A DNA stretch of 64,000 nucleotides from positions 5,828,001 through 5,892,000 of the forward strand of contig NZ_CP043761.1 of assembly GCF_008386395.1 (NCBI RefSeq). Direction: 5' to 3'. Source of the stretch: Paenibacillus sp. 37. GTDB taxonomy: Bacteria > Bacillota > Bacilli > Paenibacillales > Paenibacillaceae. Positions 11,059 through 53,900 of this stretch are shown in pieces (within the stretch, counting starts at the first letter, position 1; each line of letters starts with the position of its first letter). The position numbers and the translations under genes were made by a program. The notes under the pieces were generated by a model. The model did not search any database. It saw nothing but the letters and a program-made list of their open reading frames with translations, and was not told the origin of the DNA.

Positions 11059-11255
11059 AAAAAAAGAGCCCTTTGCAGAAACAAAGAGGGCTCTTCACGT
11101 GAAAGAATATACCTTCTCATCTGCCAAAATCGTGCCTTGCACCATTTTGTAGGAATTAGCACCTAACATCTATAACGAATGATACATGTATCATGTCATT
11201 ACAAATCGGTTGCCGGGCTTCATCGGGCCTGTCCCTCCGCCGCTCTCGATAAGAA
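11059..11255 (-). promoter_or_regulatory. SAM (S-box) riboswitch with terminator, upstream of metN
   Basis: Read on the minus strand, the region starts TTCTTATCGAGAGCGGCGGA, continues GGGACAGGCCCGATGAAGCC, CGGCAACC, then GGTGCTAATTCC and ends GATGAGAA. These are the conserved blocks of the class I SAM aptamer, with P1 formed by TTCTTATC and GATGAGAA. It is followed by an intrinsic terminator (AAGAGCCCTCTTTG, its complement and a T run, 11059-11095). By family logic, SAM binding stabilises the terminator and shuts metNIQ off when methionine is plentiful. Confidence 0.96.
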
Positions 11256-12315: not shown

Positions 12316-13254
12316 TTAGAAACGATTAGCCGGGCGATGCAGCTTGTACACCAGGAAACTCATATACGTTAAAACTCCGAATAATATGGCGATATCCAGC
12401 ATATGAGCGAGAGCTACAAACATGTATACTTCCGGACGGTTCATTGTCACCATCATGAAAATACCAATGACTACTTGCATCAGGATGAGAACAACGGATA
12501 CCACGCCAAGGGTCCGCATTTCCTTGTTGTCCGGATGATTACGGTAAGCGAAGTGACCCAGAATTGCGATAACAATCACGAGCGACGCTGCTGCTGCACG
12601 GTGAGCAAAAGCAACCGCTACCCCACCCGAAAGCTCAGGAATAATCTGCCCGTTACAGAGCGGAAATCCGGAACATCCGCCAGCAGAATCCGTGTGACTC
12701 ACAAATGCACCCGTGTATACCACGAGATATGTGTAAATAGTGGAGAACCAGACCAGATTCCTGAATTTTTTACTAACCCGAGGGTATTTATTCAGGCGTT
12801 CCAATCCGCCATCTTTAGCCTCCTGCCTTATGCCCAGCGCCATCATTAGAGAACTGGCAAAAGCAATCAGTGCAAAACCAAAATGCAGTGCCATGACTGC
12901 TGAAGATTGGGAGAAGACGACGGCAAAAGCACCCATGATTCCCTGGACGATAACAAATACAAGAGTTAAGAAAGAAAACAATTGCAGGTCACGGCGTGAC
13001 TTGCCGAACTGCAGAAAAGCAACAAATGAGGCAATGGACAACAGTCCAGCCAGTGCACTTACAGCGCGGTGGGAATATTCAATGAGTGAAGCCACAGTAT
13101 GTGCCGGAACGAGTTTTCCGTTACATAAAGGCCATTCTGTTCCGCAGCCAAGGCCTGATTCCGTTTTGGTTACGATGCCTCCACCAAAAGTGGCCAGAAA
13201 CATGACAAGACAGGTTAATACGGTTAACCATTTAAACAAAGTTAAGTGTTTCAA
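12316..13254 (-). CDS. ctaA: Heme A synthase CtaA
   Basis: A 312-residue, eight-helix membrane protein that converts heme O to heme A for aa3-type cytochrome oxidase. It shows the duplicated four-helix architecture. Each half has a loop with a cysteine pair (GCGTEWPLC and GCSGFPLC) and conserved histidines for heme binding (EYSHR, ALHFG, FAHRA, LAHML). The start is a TTG after GGGTGAG. On the minus strand TATAAT lies about 90 bases upstream (near 13347). An odd palindrome TTTGTGACAAA at 13376-13386 could be a redox-regulator half site, a weak guess. Confidence 0.94.
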   Translation of the reverse strand: MKHLTLFKWLTVLTCLVMFLATFGGGIVTKTESGLGCGTEWPLCNGKLVPAHTVASLIEYSHRAVSALAGLLSIASFVAFLQFGKSRRDLQLFSFLTLVFVIVQGIMGAFAVVFSQSSAVMALHFGFALIAFASSLMMALGIRQEAKDGGLERLNKYPRVSKKFRNLVWFSTIYTYLVVYTGAFVSHTDSAGGCSGFPLCNGQIIPELSGGVAVAFAHRAAAASLVIVIAILGHFAYRNHPDNKEMRTLGVVSVVLILMQVVIGIFMMVTMNRPEVYMFVALAHMLDIAILFGVLTYMSFLVYKLHRPANRF

Positions 13255-13487
13255 ATTTTTCTCACCCGCTGTTGGTTTAAGATGGCGAAGAATATTCTCC
13301 GCTTGTTTCGGTACTTTGACACTTATTTCACAACTAAATTCATTATACCGGATAAAATGTTCATTGACGTCGCGCTTTGTGACAAAATGTTAACGTCTGG
13401 TGAAATAATGACCCGCAGGTCATTGGGGTTATGTTATTTGGGGGATAGCCAGTTGAATTGTGTCTTAAACAGAGTTCAGAACACACA

Positions 13488-13523
13488 AACGCCATTTCCC
13501 TATTTCAAGAGAAATGGCGTTTC
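13488..13523 (-). terminator. Hairpin downstream of the thioredoxin-like gene
   Basis: AAACGCCATTTC and GAAATGGCGTTT form a perfect 12-bp stem with a 12-base loop. Neither side has a strong T run; the minus-strand side (TTTGTGTG) is the better terminator candidate, for transcripts from 14141. Confidence 0.5.
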
Positions 13524-13602
13524 ATCTAGTATACCCTTTAACAACATGAACCTGTCATACATTTATATAAGTTCAATGAAAAATTTACACAATAACGGAG
13601 AG

Positions 13603-13752
13603 GACAGAAATAGCCTGAAGAAGCGAAGCTAAAAGCTTTCTGAAAGAAAGCTGCATCGAAAGCATATGCTTCGCCTTTATCCCCGGATTTCCCCCTAATA
13701 AAAGGGATCAAAGAAATCTGGGGATAACAGCGATCAAAAGGTTATTCTGTCA
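13603..13752 (+). repeat. Structured dispersed repeat, copy A
   Basis: The outer stem is ACAGA-A-ATAGCC with GGTTAT-TCTGT. Inside are a hairpin GCGAAGC...GCTTCGC enlarged by an extra AAAGCTTTC/GAAAGCT stem, and a second hairpin TTATCCCC...GGGGATAA. Then comes the conserved ACAGCGATC. The same architecture occurs at 32903-33043 and, on the other strand, at 51983-52095. It fills most of the gap between the ctaA promoter region and the thioredoxin-like gene and contains no gene. Confidence 0.75.
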
Positions 13753-13796
13753 TCGGAGTGCCTGTGTGAATATTCATCATTTGAACTTATATAACA

Positions 13797-32692: not shown

Positions 32693-32902
32693 GCCTGTAT
32701 CAAGCTCTTCTTCCCTACCGTTATGACAGCAATTAGGCCTGTATTTTCATTAGCTTTGCATCATTCCCCCATTTACAGCTAAACTATATAAAATGGACTA
32801 ACGTTTTACACACACGAACGGAGCGGCCTAGTGATCCTCAGCGCCGTCTTTAAGATTTCATCTTTTTCTTTAAAGCATCATTAGGTATGGACGATCATTG
32901 GA

Positions 32903-33043
32903 AGTAGTGAAGGGGACGGAATCGATTTTGAAGAAGCGGTAGCGTTCGCCTTTGTCTCCATATTTCAACCTTTAAAAAATTAATCAGAAATTTGGAGACA
33001 ACAGCGATCGAAGGAACGATCCGTAACCGTAACGGCCACTACT
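32903..33043 (+). repeat. Structured dispersed repeat, copy B
   Basis: The terminal AGTAGTG pairs with CACTACT. The next helix is ACGG-A-ATCG with CGAT-CCGT, then a small GCG/CGC hairpin, then a stem TTGTCTCC...GGAGACAA, then ACAGCGATC. It shares sequence and fold with copies A and C. It lies in the 521-base gap between the MFS and Toprim genes; the rest of that gap shows no gene. Confidence 0.8.
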
Positions 33044-33213
33044 GATCAGAATTAATTCCTGATGTATGTGAAAAAGAATTTAGAAATCAAAGGTGCTCCT
33101 GTCGCGTGGTGAACAGTGTAAAGAAAGGAGTCCATTTTATATAATCAGTCGATTTTCGCTGCAACATTTCCCGGGGAATGTCGACATAAGCTCTCGAACA
33201 AGAGGTGAATATC

Positions 33214-37485: not shown

Positions 37486-37798
37486 CAAAAAGGCCCCACA
37501 TCCGCAAGGGACGTGAGACCGTGGTGCCACCCTTATTCGCTTTTCTTCTATTGCTCCTGACTCTGAATCAAGTCAAGCCGAAGAAATGCCTTCATTGTTC
37601 CGTAACGTGGATTAAACGGCAGACTCTAGTGGGGCAAGCCCATCTCCGGCTTAACCTGTTCAAACCTACACTCAAGGGTCCATTCGGTACAGAGCTCACA
37701 CCGGTTCACATCAACCACCGGCTTTCTGAAGAGGATTCTCTTGGCCTACTTATCCCTGTCATCGATTTCATGTCATTCAATTCTAATAAATGCTTTCA
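37486..37798 (-). promoter_or_regulatory. T-box leader of trpS, specifier UGG
   Basis: On the minus strand the leader contains the T-box sequence AGGGTGGCACCACGG (37521-37535 region), whose UGGC can pair with the GCCA end of uncharged tRNA-Trp. It is followed by a terminator (37486-37520) ending TTTTT. In stem I the motif GAATGGAC places TGG (37680-37682) as the specifier codon for tryptophan. Uncharged tRNA-Trp would stabilise the antiterminator and switch trpS on. Confidence 0.94.
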
Positions 37799-50999: not shown

Positions 51000-51893
51000 T
51001 TAATTTTTCTCTACAGCGTGACCGCCAAATTCATTACGCAATGCTGCTACCACTTTACCTGTGAATGTGTCTGTCTCCAGGGAACGATAACGCATCAGCA
51101 AGGACAACGCGATAACCGGTGTAGCGGTTTGAAGGTCAAATGCCGTTTCTACTGTCCAGCGTCCTTCGCCGGAAGAGTGCATTACACCTTTAATCTCATC
51201 GAGGTTTGCATCTTTGGAGAAGGCACGTTCTGTCAGCTCCATCAACCAAGAGCGGATAACGGAACCGTTGTTCCATACGCGAGCCACTTGTTCGAAGTCG
51301 AAATCAAATCCACTTTTCTCCAATACGTCAAAACCTTCACCAATGGATGCCATCATACCGTACTCGATACCATTGTGAACCATTTTGAGGAAGTGACCGC
51401 TGCCCGCTTTACCAGCATACAGGTAGCCATTCTCTACGGAAGTATCTTTGAATGCCGGTTCAACGATTGCCCAAGCCTCCGGGTCCCCACCGATCATATA
51501 ACATGCTCCATTACGTGCGCCTTCCATACCGCCAGATGTACCTGCATCCATGTAGTGAATGCCTTTGGTTTTCATCTCTTCATAGCGACGGATGGATTCT
51601 TTGTAGTGGGAGTTACCCGCTTCAATGATGATGTCGCCTTTGGACAACAACGGGCTGACTTCAGCCAATACAGCATCTACTACGTTGTGGGGAACCATGA
51701 TCCACAATACACGTGGGGATTCGAGCGAAGCCACCATCTCAGCGTAAGAAGACACGCCTTCAGCGCCGTATTCTTTCATTTCATTTACTGCTTCAGCGTT
51801 CAGGTCAAAAGCAACTACTTCGTGTTTGTGGTCAATCAAGTTTCTACCTAGGTTCAATCCCATTTTTCCTAATCCGACGAGTCCAAGTTTCAT
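51000..51893 (-). CDS. gnd: 6-phosphogluconate dehydrogenase, decarboxylating, short form
   Basis: A 297-residue protein: an N-terminal Rossmann domain with GLGKMG (residues 7-12), the substrate motif GTSGGMEGAR (about 118-127), and the catalytic lysine in KMVHNGIEYGMM. The short form (about 300 residues against 470 for the classical Gnd) corresponds to YqeC-type enzymes, usually NAD-preferring. It oxidises 6-phosphogluconate to ribulose 5-phosphate. AGGAGG precedes the ATG. It lies between zwf and tal, separated from zwf by a small ORF, a terminator-like hairpin and structured repeat copy C. Confidence 0.93.
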   Translation of the reverse strand: MKLGLVGLGKMGLNLGRNLIDHKHEVVAFDLNAEAVNEMKEYGAEGVSSYAEMVASLESPRVLWIMVPHNVVDAVLAEVSPLLSKGDIIIEAGNSHYKESIRRYEEMKTKGIHYMDAGTSGGMEGARNGACYMIGGDPEAWAIVEPAFKDTSVENGYLYAGKAGSGHFLKMVHNGIEYGMMASIGEGFDVLEKSGFDFDFEQVARVWNNGSVIRSWLMELTERAFSKDANLDEIKGVMHSSGEGRWTVETAFDLQTATPVIALSLLMRYRSLETDTFTGKVVAALRNEFGGHAVEKN

Positions 51894-51982
51894 TTTAAAA
51901 TCCTCCTGTTATGAACAATGTTTAAATTGCATTTGCGTTCAAATATTAATTAAGGTTTGCGTTATGCAGCAACCGTTCCGGT

Positions 51983-52095
51983 GATGGATCGTTCTTATGA
52001 TCGCTGTTGTATCCAAATTTTTTTTAACTATTTTTCTTATAGTTAAAATTCGGATACAAAGGCGAACGCTTCGCTTCTTCAGAATCGATTCCATC
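51983..52095 (-). repeat. Structured dispersed repeat, copy C
   Basis: On the minus strand GATGG-A-ATCG pairs with CGAT-CCATC. Inside are hairpin GCGAA/TTCGC and stem TTGTATCC...GGATACAA, then ACAGCGATC. Its sequence is closest to copy B. It lies in the 552-base stretch between gnd and zwf. Confidence 0.8.
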
Positions 52096-52162
52096 CCCTA
52101 CACTACGGCACTACACCAAAAGTTAATTAATTTGAACACCTCTATATTAAAAAATTTCCACT

Positions 52163-52445: not shown

Positions 52446-53900
52446 TTACCACCAACGGTAGCCATCTGCAGCTGTCAGGCGATCTGCTGACTCTGGTCCA
52501 TGCGAACCTGCACTGTACGTATCCAGTGGCACGTTGCCCACTTCGAATGCTTCCTGAATCGGTTGAACCCACTGCCATGCCAGCTCCACTTCGTTCCAGT
52601 GAGCGAAGAAGGTGGAATCACCACGCATAGCGTCAAAGATCAGATTCTCGTACGCTTCAGGGATGTTACGTTTACCTGAGTTGAAGGTCATATGCATCGG
52701 CTCCACTTCACCATGGTTCAATGGATTCTTCGCATTTAATTGAAGGGAAATACTTTCTCCCGGACCAATTTCAATCGTAAGCAGGTTAGGTTCCGTTGTA
52801 TTTTCGGATTCATGCCCCGTTTTCAGTGGAGCCTTGAACTCAACAACGATTCGAGTGGATTTCTCAGCCAGGCGTTTACCTGTACGGATATAAAATGGAA
52901 CCTCACTCCAGAACGGATCATCGATCCACAGTCTTGCGGCAACATAGGTCTCATTCTGCGATCCGGCAGGGATGCCAGGCTCGTCCAGATATCCAACAAC
53001 CGAAGTGCCTTGCAGCTCACCTGCGGCATATTGCGCACGAACGACTTCAGAAGCGACGTTTTCTTTCGTCAAAGGACGAAGTGCTTCAGCAATTTTTTGC
53101 TTTTTGAATTGAATTTCTTCCGGTGTGCAACGTTTTGGCAAATGCAAACCAATCATCATCAGCAACTGAAGCATATGGTTTTGGAACATGTCACGAAGCG
53201 CACCACTTTGGTCGTAATACGCCGCACGTTCTTCAACACCCACCGTCTCACTTGCCGTAATCTGAACATTGGCAATATAACGGTTAGACCACAACGCTTG
53301 AATTACCGGATTTGCATAGGTGAGCGTCTCAATATTTTGAACCATTGGTTTACCAAGGAAATGGTCAATACGGTAAATCTCTTCTTCCGCAAACGTATTG
53401 CTCAGTTTTTCGTTCAGATCACGAGCGGATTGCAGGTCGTGTCCGAAAGGTTTTTCGATAATCAGTTTCTTCCAGCCTTTGGTGTTACCCAGGCCACTTT
53501 CTTGTATGTTTAATGCGATTGGCTCAAAGAATTCCGGTGCCACCGACATGTAGAACATGCGGTTTTCGGGAATGTTAAGCTCTTGTTCACGCTGTTGAAC
53601 CAGTTCCAACAGTTTGGTGTAATCTTCAAGCTTCGTATTATTTAAAGAACAATAACGGAAAGCTCCAATGAAATCCCGAACCTGAGATGCTTCTTCCGGC
53701 GTCTGACGTGAGAATTCATGCAGTGACTTTTCAACATTCGCCTGAAAGTCCGTATCCGACAATTCACGTCGTCCCAAACCGATAACGGAGAAGGATTCCG
53801 GCATTTTCTCATCCATGTACAAGTTATATAATGCAGGGTAAATCTTGCGTTTGGCTAAATCGCCTGTTGCCCCGAACAGGACAAATGTCATTGCATCCAT
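52446..53900 (-). CDS. zwf: Glucose-6-phosphate 1-dehydrogenase
   Basis: A 484-residue enzyme making 6-phosphogluconolactone and NADPH, the entry to the pentose phosphate pathway. The cofactor motif is GATGDLAKRK (residues 10-19). The active-site RIDHFLGK (about residues 178-185) contains the catalytic histidine region, and IIEKPFG precedes it. AGGAGG precedes the ATG. It is followed on the same strand by gnd and tal but probably has its own transcript. Divergent from the HxlR gene across a 415-base region with no gene. Confidence 0.96.
   Translation of the reverse strand: MDAMTFVLFGATGDLAKRKIYPALYNLYMDEKMPESFSVIGLGRRELSDTDFQANVEKSLHEFSRQTPEEASQVRDFIGAFRYCSLNNTKLEDYTKLLELVQQREQELNIPENRMFYMSVAPEFFEPIALNIQESGLGNTKGWKKLIIEKPFGHDLQSARDLNEKLSNTFAEEEIYRIDHFLGKPMVQNIETLTYANPVIQALWSNRYIANVQITASETVGVEERAAYYDQSGALRDMFQNHMLQLLMMIGLHLPKRCTPEEIQFKKQKIAEALRPLTKENVASEVVRAQYAAGELQGTSVVGYLDEPGIPAGSQNETYVAARLWIDDPFWSEVPFYIRTGKRLAEKSTRIVVEFKAPLKTGHESENTTEPNLLTIEIGPGESISLQLNAKNPLNHGEVEPMHMTFNSGKRNIPEAYENLIFDAMRGDSTFFAHWNEVELAWQWVQPIQEAFEVGNVPLDTYSAGSHGPESADRLTAADGYRWW

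Follow-up and report, generated by a model that had tools for sequence, protein, structure and literature searches.

Probable IS630-type MITEs with a conserved, strand-specific folded core in Paenibacillus and related genera

We analysed a stretch of 64,000 nucleotides of the Paenibacillus sp. 37 chromosome (contig NZ_CP043761.1, positions 5,828,001 to 5,892,000), hereafter called the window, in which an original prediction made from the letters alone had placed three copies (A, B and C) of a dispersed element with covarying secondary structure. Copy C lies between zwf (glucose-6-phosphate dehydrogenase, 52446-53900, -) and a gnd-type gene (phosphogluconate dehydrogenase, 51000-51893, -), both on the strand of copy C. 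Copy B is flanked by an ORF with sub-threshold MFS transporter matches and an ORF with a sub-threshold ribonuclease M5 match, and copy A adjoins an ORF with a sub-threshold thioredoxin-like match, the two dehydrogenases being the only neighbour genes of the three copies that pass cut-offs. The window also holds a T-box leader (37504-37771, -) and a SAM riboswitch (11114-11255, -), each an ordinary member of its known family. The parts of the three copies are as follows.

13564..13591 (+): left tip of copy A (terminal inverted repeat), TATATAAGTTCAATG... then TTTACACA, resembling the terminal inverted repeat pattern of the family
13585..13768 (+): structured core of copy A, long variant (R1 match, 133.5 bits, E-value 4.3e-31)
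13630..13669 (+): extra hairpin module of ~40 nt inside the core of copy A, the same module that varies in number at site S7
13763..13793 (+): right tip of copy A, TGTGTGAATATTCATCATTTGAACTTATATA; the whole insertion is absent here in genome G049
32785..32811 (+): left tip of copy B, TATATAAAATGGACTAACGTTTTACAC, absent at the empty sites L149, L150 and L152-L155
32897..33042 (+): structured core of copy B (R1 match, 140.7 bits, E-value 6e-33)
32936..32943 (+): mini-hairpin GC-GGTA-GC of copy B (GNNA loop), assigned by sequence and the family loop rule
32952..32959 (+): 5' side of the inner stem of copy B, TTGTCTCC, pairing with 32994-33001
32994..33001 (+): 3' side of the inner stem of copy B, GGAGACAA, assigned by folding and covariation
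33116..33143 (+): right tip of copy B, GTGTAAAGAAAGGAGTCCATTTTATATA, assigned by sequence and the alignment of copy-B sites
51966..52113 (-): structured core of copy C (R1 match, 149.4 bits, E-value 3.6e-35)
52116..52137 (-): candidate remnant of an inverted-repeat arm of copy C, GTTCAAATTAATTAACTTTTGG, diverged and weaker than in A and B

The predicted coordinates of all three copies were right or off by a few bases, and the shared blocks, the bulged A and the outer helices are present as described. The inner stem reads TTATCCCC/GGGGATAA, TTGTCTCC/GGAGACAA and TTGTATCC/GGATACAA in copies A, B and C, with 3 of 8 pairs differing on both sides. Each of the three stretches folds better than 200 of 200 dinucleotide shuffles (z of -7.95, -4.43 and -5.80). 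The helices are indeed common to all three; the description was incomplete in that the extra module of copy A is absent from B and C. B and C are intergenic as proposed, lying between ORFs that match gene families, whereas copy A overlaps the end of a mechanical ORF (13246-13632, 128 aa).

A nucleotide search of the same genome using copy C as a query returned 43 places. Along the lines suggested with the original prediction, we then used a covariance model (R1, 147 positions) built from 31 aligned copies of this genome (alignment A3). R1 matched 150 of the 150 candidates scored in the 7.6-Mb genome (weakest E-value 4.6e-5), and what had been taken for a three-copy element is present in at least 150 copies, with two more 3' halves with tips, in L300 and L301, coming on top of these. 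The 150 comprise 97 short and 53 long copies, the latter carrying the additional ~40-nt module in those inspected. Using stricter filters, R1 matched 119 of 148 genomes of the same bacterial family, representing 13 of its 19 genera. Eleven genomes, one per genus and picked because they matched, contained 5 to 136 matches each, and 15 further genomes from 9 genera, picked likewise, contained 2 to 72. In a sample of the phylum 5 of 299 genomes matched, all five from the same family, and the 20 non-matching genomes among those listed lie outside it. The guess that such sequences may be common in Paenibacillus was borne out by a pattern scan of named genomes (a pattern narrower than R1), which found at least 120 stretches, the 80 loci listed being all from Paenibacillus. 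Taken together, the searches of the genome, the family and the phylum rule out an element confined to three copies or to one species. Against plasmid records, copy B gave 3 matches, all from Paenibacillus and without an annotated feature beneath; a search of phage records using copy C gave no match.

To compare occupied and unoccupied sites, we searched the copy-B region in 60 genomes of the same genus and read 30 loci, of which 19 (including that of the window) were filled (L127-L145), 3 partly deleted (L146-L148) and 6 empty (L149, L150, L152-L155), L151 retaining tip fragments only and L156 having diverged too far. The sequence at filled sites is TATATAAAATGGACT...AGTCCATTTTATATA. We aligned 11 polymorphic sites, namely that of copy B, sites located by synteny in nine relatives, and sites of a further region compared across six species including our own. 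A clean TA duplication, with one TA when empty and two when filled, was found at 3 of the 11: at C1:5893.5 kb of the genome under study (GAC-TA-GGA when empty, GAC-TA-[element]-TA-GGA when filled), at S1, filled in G038 alone among six species (ATC-TA-[element]-TA-GCATC, against ATC-TA-GCATC in G000 and G131 and TTGCATC in the others), and at S3 (CCGCTC-TA-TTTAAAATTC in G467 and G139). S4 fits a TA duplication with neighbouring changes, the sites of copies A and B have an extra TA, and S2, S5, S6, S7 and G131 28180 are not clean. Of 148 AAGTTGAACTAA-like tips, 107 are preceded by T at position -5 and 108 by A at position -4.

Orthologous sites are polymorphic for the presence of the element, which implies both insertion and loss. 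Copy C looks old, because a core occurs at the matching distance from the copy-B site and on the matching strand in 9 of 9 relatives (by R1 positions, without alignment). At S7 the ~40-nt module numbers 0, 1 or 2 depending on the species, and at the copy-B site two species have it and the others are without it; within the core it occupies one of two positions (window 13630-13669; L021; L160; S7). Comparing L127-L134 with L135-L142, the tips, the core and the site are the same and the sequence between them differs: either other arms have taken their place or the arms are no longer recognisably similar, and the core has been retained. In L163 (1501-1630), a copy has lost its main hairpin between two GCG repeats, and L162 and L166 are tip-only remnants, so that loss proceeds stepwise through hairpin deletion.

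Some IS630-family elements in other Paenibacillus species end in the same sequence as the tips (TATAAGTTGAACTAA). We found 94 matches to TATATAAGTTGAACTAA (at most 2 mismatches) in the genome under study versus 7 for the reversed control, 70 of them at most 120 bp away from a core among the 150 and the other 24 farther off. A search for an autonomous element covered 23 of these 24, with ORFs listed for part of them, and showed coincidental matches, half copies or remnants. In L300, a wider tip pair was discarded as a chance pair around an ordinary gene. Tip-like sequence was present at 174 of 300 ends versus 8 of 300 control windows, and the 54 copies with both tips measure 179-254 bp and contain no transposase gene. 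Aligning the arms for inverted repeats gave clear tips in type 2 copies and few in type 1. In other genera a AAGTTGAAC-like tip was weakly enriched (21 of 90 ends versus 25 of 360 control windows), and the link between tip and core is seen mainly within one genus.

IS630 elements duplicate TA. A search for IS630 DDE_3 gave 0 matches in the genome under study and found it in 20 of 75 Paenibacillus genomes; with no match of its own, this genome would therefore have received the mobiliser from relatives or had it in the past. Among 30 IS630 loci, five carry a TATAAGTTGAACTAA-like tip (at most 2 mismatches) at both ends, ~1.17 kb apart: L228 and L247, which share a genome, and L233, L248 and L249, making 4 genomes in all. 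The remaining 25 have a single tip, different tips or no tip. L248 begins with CTATATAAGTTGAACTAAAGA, the tip of several copies of the genome under study (e.g. L163); DDE_3 was confirmed in its enclosed ORF, and its transposase lies in two overlapping frames of 192 and 207 codons. Movement presumably depends on an IS630 transposase.

For the fold, RNAalifold run on the 31 copies of A3 gave 35 pairs, of which 21 had double changes. Counted on 56 matches from other genera (alignment A4), 31 of these 35 pairs had double changes, and running RNAalifold on A4 improved the structure to 37 pairs. It is made up of an outer helix, a symmetric GNA/GNA internal loop, a long helix carrying a bulged A, a small hairpin (GC-GNA-GC) and a main stem, with TCGC/GCGA at the base followed by a CTTT/AACA loop and 14 pairs. 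On the 56 matches, pairing holds in 96.8% of cells, and double changes are seen in 36 of 37 pairs. The statistical check of covariation that the original prediction had proposed was done with shuffle and slide controls: covariation was 0.635 on A4 versus 0.204 in shuffles and at most 0.123 when the structure was slid, 0 of 500 shuffles reached any of five measures, and slid versions were only 33-48% paired. The A4 alignment was fitted to R1, which favours the structure, yet R1 comes from one genome and the A4 rows from other genera. The 56 rows include a weak and partial match on the antisense strand (L107 1548-1633), which was kept except in the G.U count. R1 itself paired GCGA with TCGC instead of forming the small hairpin, and the choice between the two rests on few varying pairs (A-U for G-C in 5 of 49 cells, columns 45-54; small-hairpin stems GC/GC 37, AC/GT 4 and GC/GT 1).

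The GNA/GNA internal loop is conserved in other genera (left side 48 of 56, right side 49 of 56), and the GNA hairpin and the CTTT/AACA loop also persist; these conserved unpaired loops argue against plain palindrome copying. The change of letters under kept pairing had been ascribed to selection on structure or to templated copying of it. Covariation in the 56 other-genus matches supports selection, and paired positions varying independently were not found; templated copying also plays some part, because core segments seem to be exchanged between copies. No named RNA family had been recognised in the element, and Rfam agrees: at the gathering score no family matches the element in the window, copy B at E-values up to 10 gave merely unrelated weak matches, and 20 loci at E-values up to 0.1 gave RNase P and one weak microRNA match, none at the core.

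Among 2012 pair cells of A4 we counted 71 G.U and 13 A.C. Because G.U outnumbers A.C, it is the sense strand that folds, as RNA or single-stranded DNA, rather than a symmetric cruciform. GNA/GNA internal loops are also a known DNA motif. The small-hairpin loops, called without demanding G..A, were GNA or GNNA in 41 of 42 called from other genera (56 rows, 50 parsed), in 76 of 87 from short copies of the genome under study (97 copies, 93 parsed; the other 11 being AAA 9, ATA 1 and AAG 1) and in 49 of 57 from other species of the genus (73 sequences, many orthologous to each other, 67 parsed; the rest being AAA 5, ATAT 2 and AGA 1). GNRA accounts for 2 of 10, 2 of 4 and 1 of 6 GNNA loops in the other genera, this genome and the genus, respectively, and in other genera the third place is a pyrimidine in 8 of 10 GNNA loops, unlike the RNA GNRA rule. 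GNA or GNNA loops closed by two or more G-C pairs are reported to characterise exceptionally stable mini-hairpin DNA (PMC4686876). The loop rule leans to DNA without proving it. In their entirety, copies B and C form folds both as DNA (z of -3.2 and -5.4) and as RNA; an isolated 17-nt piece folded as DNA gave the hairpin GCGAA/TTCGC instead of the mini-hairpin.

We assessed orientation relative to replication from a dnaA-like ORF at C1:1 (recognised by eye), taking the half-way point as the terminus. Of the 150 copies, 115 run with replication (p=4e-11), neighbouring copies being non-independent, which makes this and the other orientation p values optimistic. In eight Paenibacillus genomes 57 of 69 listed top matches run with replication (origins assumed, many of the matches orthologous to copies of the genome under study). 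No such bias shows on eight chromosomes from other genera, where 40 of 76 listed matches run with replication (origins unchecked; G075 14/17, G013 8/10, G066 5/9, G088 6/17, G126 4/11, G004 1/6, G050 1/4 and G040 1/2). Using a rough gene caller, 12 of 150 copies overlap a called ORF, and the 148 copies classified by gene context comprise 82 sense and 22 antisense copies in tandem pairs, 22 between convergent and 22 between divergent genes. In a joint model replication has an effect given gene direction (p=1e-4) and gene direction has one given replication (p=0.003). Copies run with replication in 17 of 22 divergent pairs, 11 of 22 convergent pairs and 9 of 15 head-on tandem pairs. The tolerance of G.U but not A.C, the GNA/GNNA loops and an orientation linked to replication and genes (in Paenibacillus only) agree with one strand folding, be it RNA or single-stranded DNA.

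We consider it probable that the three stretches of the window are the cores of non-autonomous IS630-type MITEs with a conserved, strand-specific fold. The element is ~180-360 bp long. Copies insert at TA and duplicate it, and share their tips with some IS630-family elements of other Paenibacillus species. They would be moved by an IS630 transposase acting in trans whenever the cell also harbours an IS630 element of this kind; after insertion the sense strand alone would fold, and selection would keep that fold. Between moves, copies would be altered by apparent exchange of hairpin segments, gain or loss of the ~40-nt module and deletion of hairpins. The fold itself is apparently needed for something, being kept though its letters changed.

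As for what it is needed for, we tentatively prefer, at somewhat less than even chances, that the fold acts as single-stranded DNA on the exposed lagging-strand template, helping the element itself to move or persist. Nearly as likely is a role at the RNA level, in transcripts, and our lean to DNA is only slight. The core would then be a structured RNA in the gene gaps of operons and in untranslated regions, affecting decay, processing or protein binding, with the transposon as its vehicle, a reading to which we assign a little over one chance in three. It draws on the excess of sense over antisense copies in tandem pairs, on the effect of gene direction once replication is accounted for, on the tolerance of G.U and on the replication bias going unseen in other genera. 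In B. cereus, about half of the bcr repeats are reported to occur in mRNA (84 of 165 and 62 of 155), and bcr3 to correlate with decay rate (PMC3446304). Against an RNA role, 22 of 148 copies lie between divergent genes and 17 of these still run with replication, the loops of other genera obey the DNA mini-hairpin rule, and at least 150 copies beside varied genes suit no single regulatory target.

That the pairing has no function, and reflects only gene conversion and quasi-palindrome correction acting between the copies of a selfish repeat, appears improbable. Such processes would account for orthologues at the copy-B site that share tips and core and differ between them, for loop and module types that are mixed among species, and for a module number of 0 to 2 at S7; palindrome correction would remove mismatched loops, yet GNA/GNA, the GNA hairpin and CTTT/AACA persist, and a five-fold excess of G.U over A.C means that one strand is favoured. 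It seems very unlikely that the element is a single-stranded DNA recombination site like those of integrons (attC) or IS200/IS605, mobilised by an HUH or tyrosine enzyme: a strand-specific fold and a replication-linked orientation would be expected of such systems, but the element shows TA duplication and IS630-like inverted tips, which to our knowledge are not IS200/IS605 features. IS608 and ISDra2 are reported to target the lagging-strand template (PMC6006769). The element forms strong hairpins a short way downstream of stop codons (median of 86 bases from the upstream co-directional gene, by the rough gene caller), but a terminator or attenuator is the least credible reading of all, since AACAGCGATC, and no T run, comes after the 3' arm of the main stem and termination does not require asymmetric conserved loops.

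Returning to the preferred single-stranded DNA mechanism, a more specific version, to which we give a little under one chance in three, is that a transposon lineage carries a complex folded single-stranded DNA domain (GNA/GNNA mini-hairpins plus a GNA/GNA internal loop) that was retained as the family's genera diverged because it works when exposed on the lagging-strand template, for example by recruiting the transposase or a replication protein. If so, it would be a natural, high-copy, DNA-aptamer-like structured DNA, and selection on a DNA fold would be legible from covariation. Gene-less transposons are not known to need more than their tips; here the middle of the element is the part that is kept, its pairs compensated across genera in all but one case. 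A fold serving the element would be a new requirement for IS630-type transposition, and one serving the host would mean that a single structured nucleic acid has been spread in many copies through a family of bacteria. Given the strand bias and the loop rule, whether it works as DNA or RNA can be tested directly in culturable soil bacteria.

We found no description of the element in the literature searched, largely without subscription papers and supplements. Structured bacterial MITEs as such are already known, and so is the kind to which this one belongs, the IS630-type MITE; judged by the searchable literature, what seems to be new is the element family, its spread over one bacterial family and its compensatorily maintained interior. 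It resembles IS630-Tc1-mariner MITEs in having no gene, a TA duplication, the inverted tips of some IS630 elements and many dispersed intergenic copies. MITE interiors are usually free to change, whereas here the interior is a complex covarying fold with loops conserved across genera. ERIC, BOX and REP/BIME are high-copy structured intergenic repeats of other hosts, and HEARO and OMEGA RNAs and IS605 elements are cases of structured nucleic acid inside a gene-less mobile element, from which ours differs in lacking an Rfam match, in having its core at the centre rather than at an end, and in its TA duplication. REP hairpins, at 20-40 bp, are far smaller (PMC3733652). The bcr1-bcr18 repeats of the Bacillus cereus group, set beside the element by description only, are also dispersed and in part of conserved structure; they measure 100-400 bp, with up to 130 copies of bcr1 and with bcr1-bcr3 MITE-like (PMC6542083, PMC3446304). 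They belong to another host group, and their mobility is tied to a TTTAT motif, as against TA and IS630 tips. The mobile/repeat sequence candidates (MRSC) of a 50-genome ncRNA survey are likewise covarying, present in many copies per genome and possibly relevant as DNA; among them our comparison covers MRSC-65-2 only, which differs in being a single long stem with UYCCGG repeats (PMC11109978).

Just left of the window, at C1:5824262-5824947 (L208 16262-16947), three copies lie in tandem on the same strand, 117-135 bases apart, and syntenic stretches of relatives carry one or two copies where this genome has three. A similar pair occurs in another species (G107:C2:68220 and 68490). In L089, from another genus, the 3' half of a core is followed, from ~1644 in the sense direction, by a near repeat of itself. 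The 136 matches in G072, a genome of another genus, nearly equal the number in the genome under study, and its copies in L078 and L105 share an outer arm of their own, GCCGGAGAGGCACGG; this copy number and private arm suggest an independent burst.
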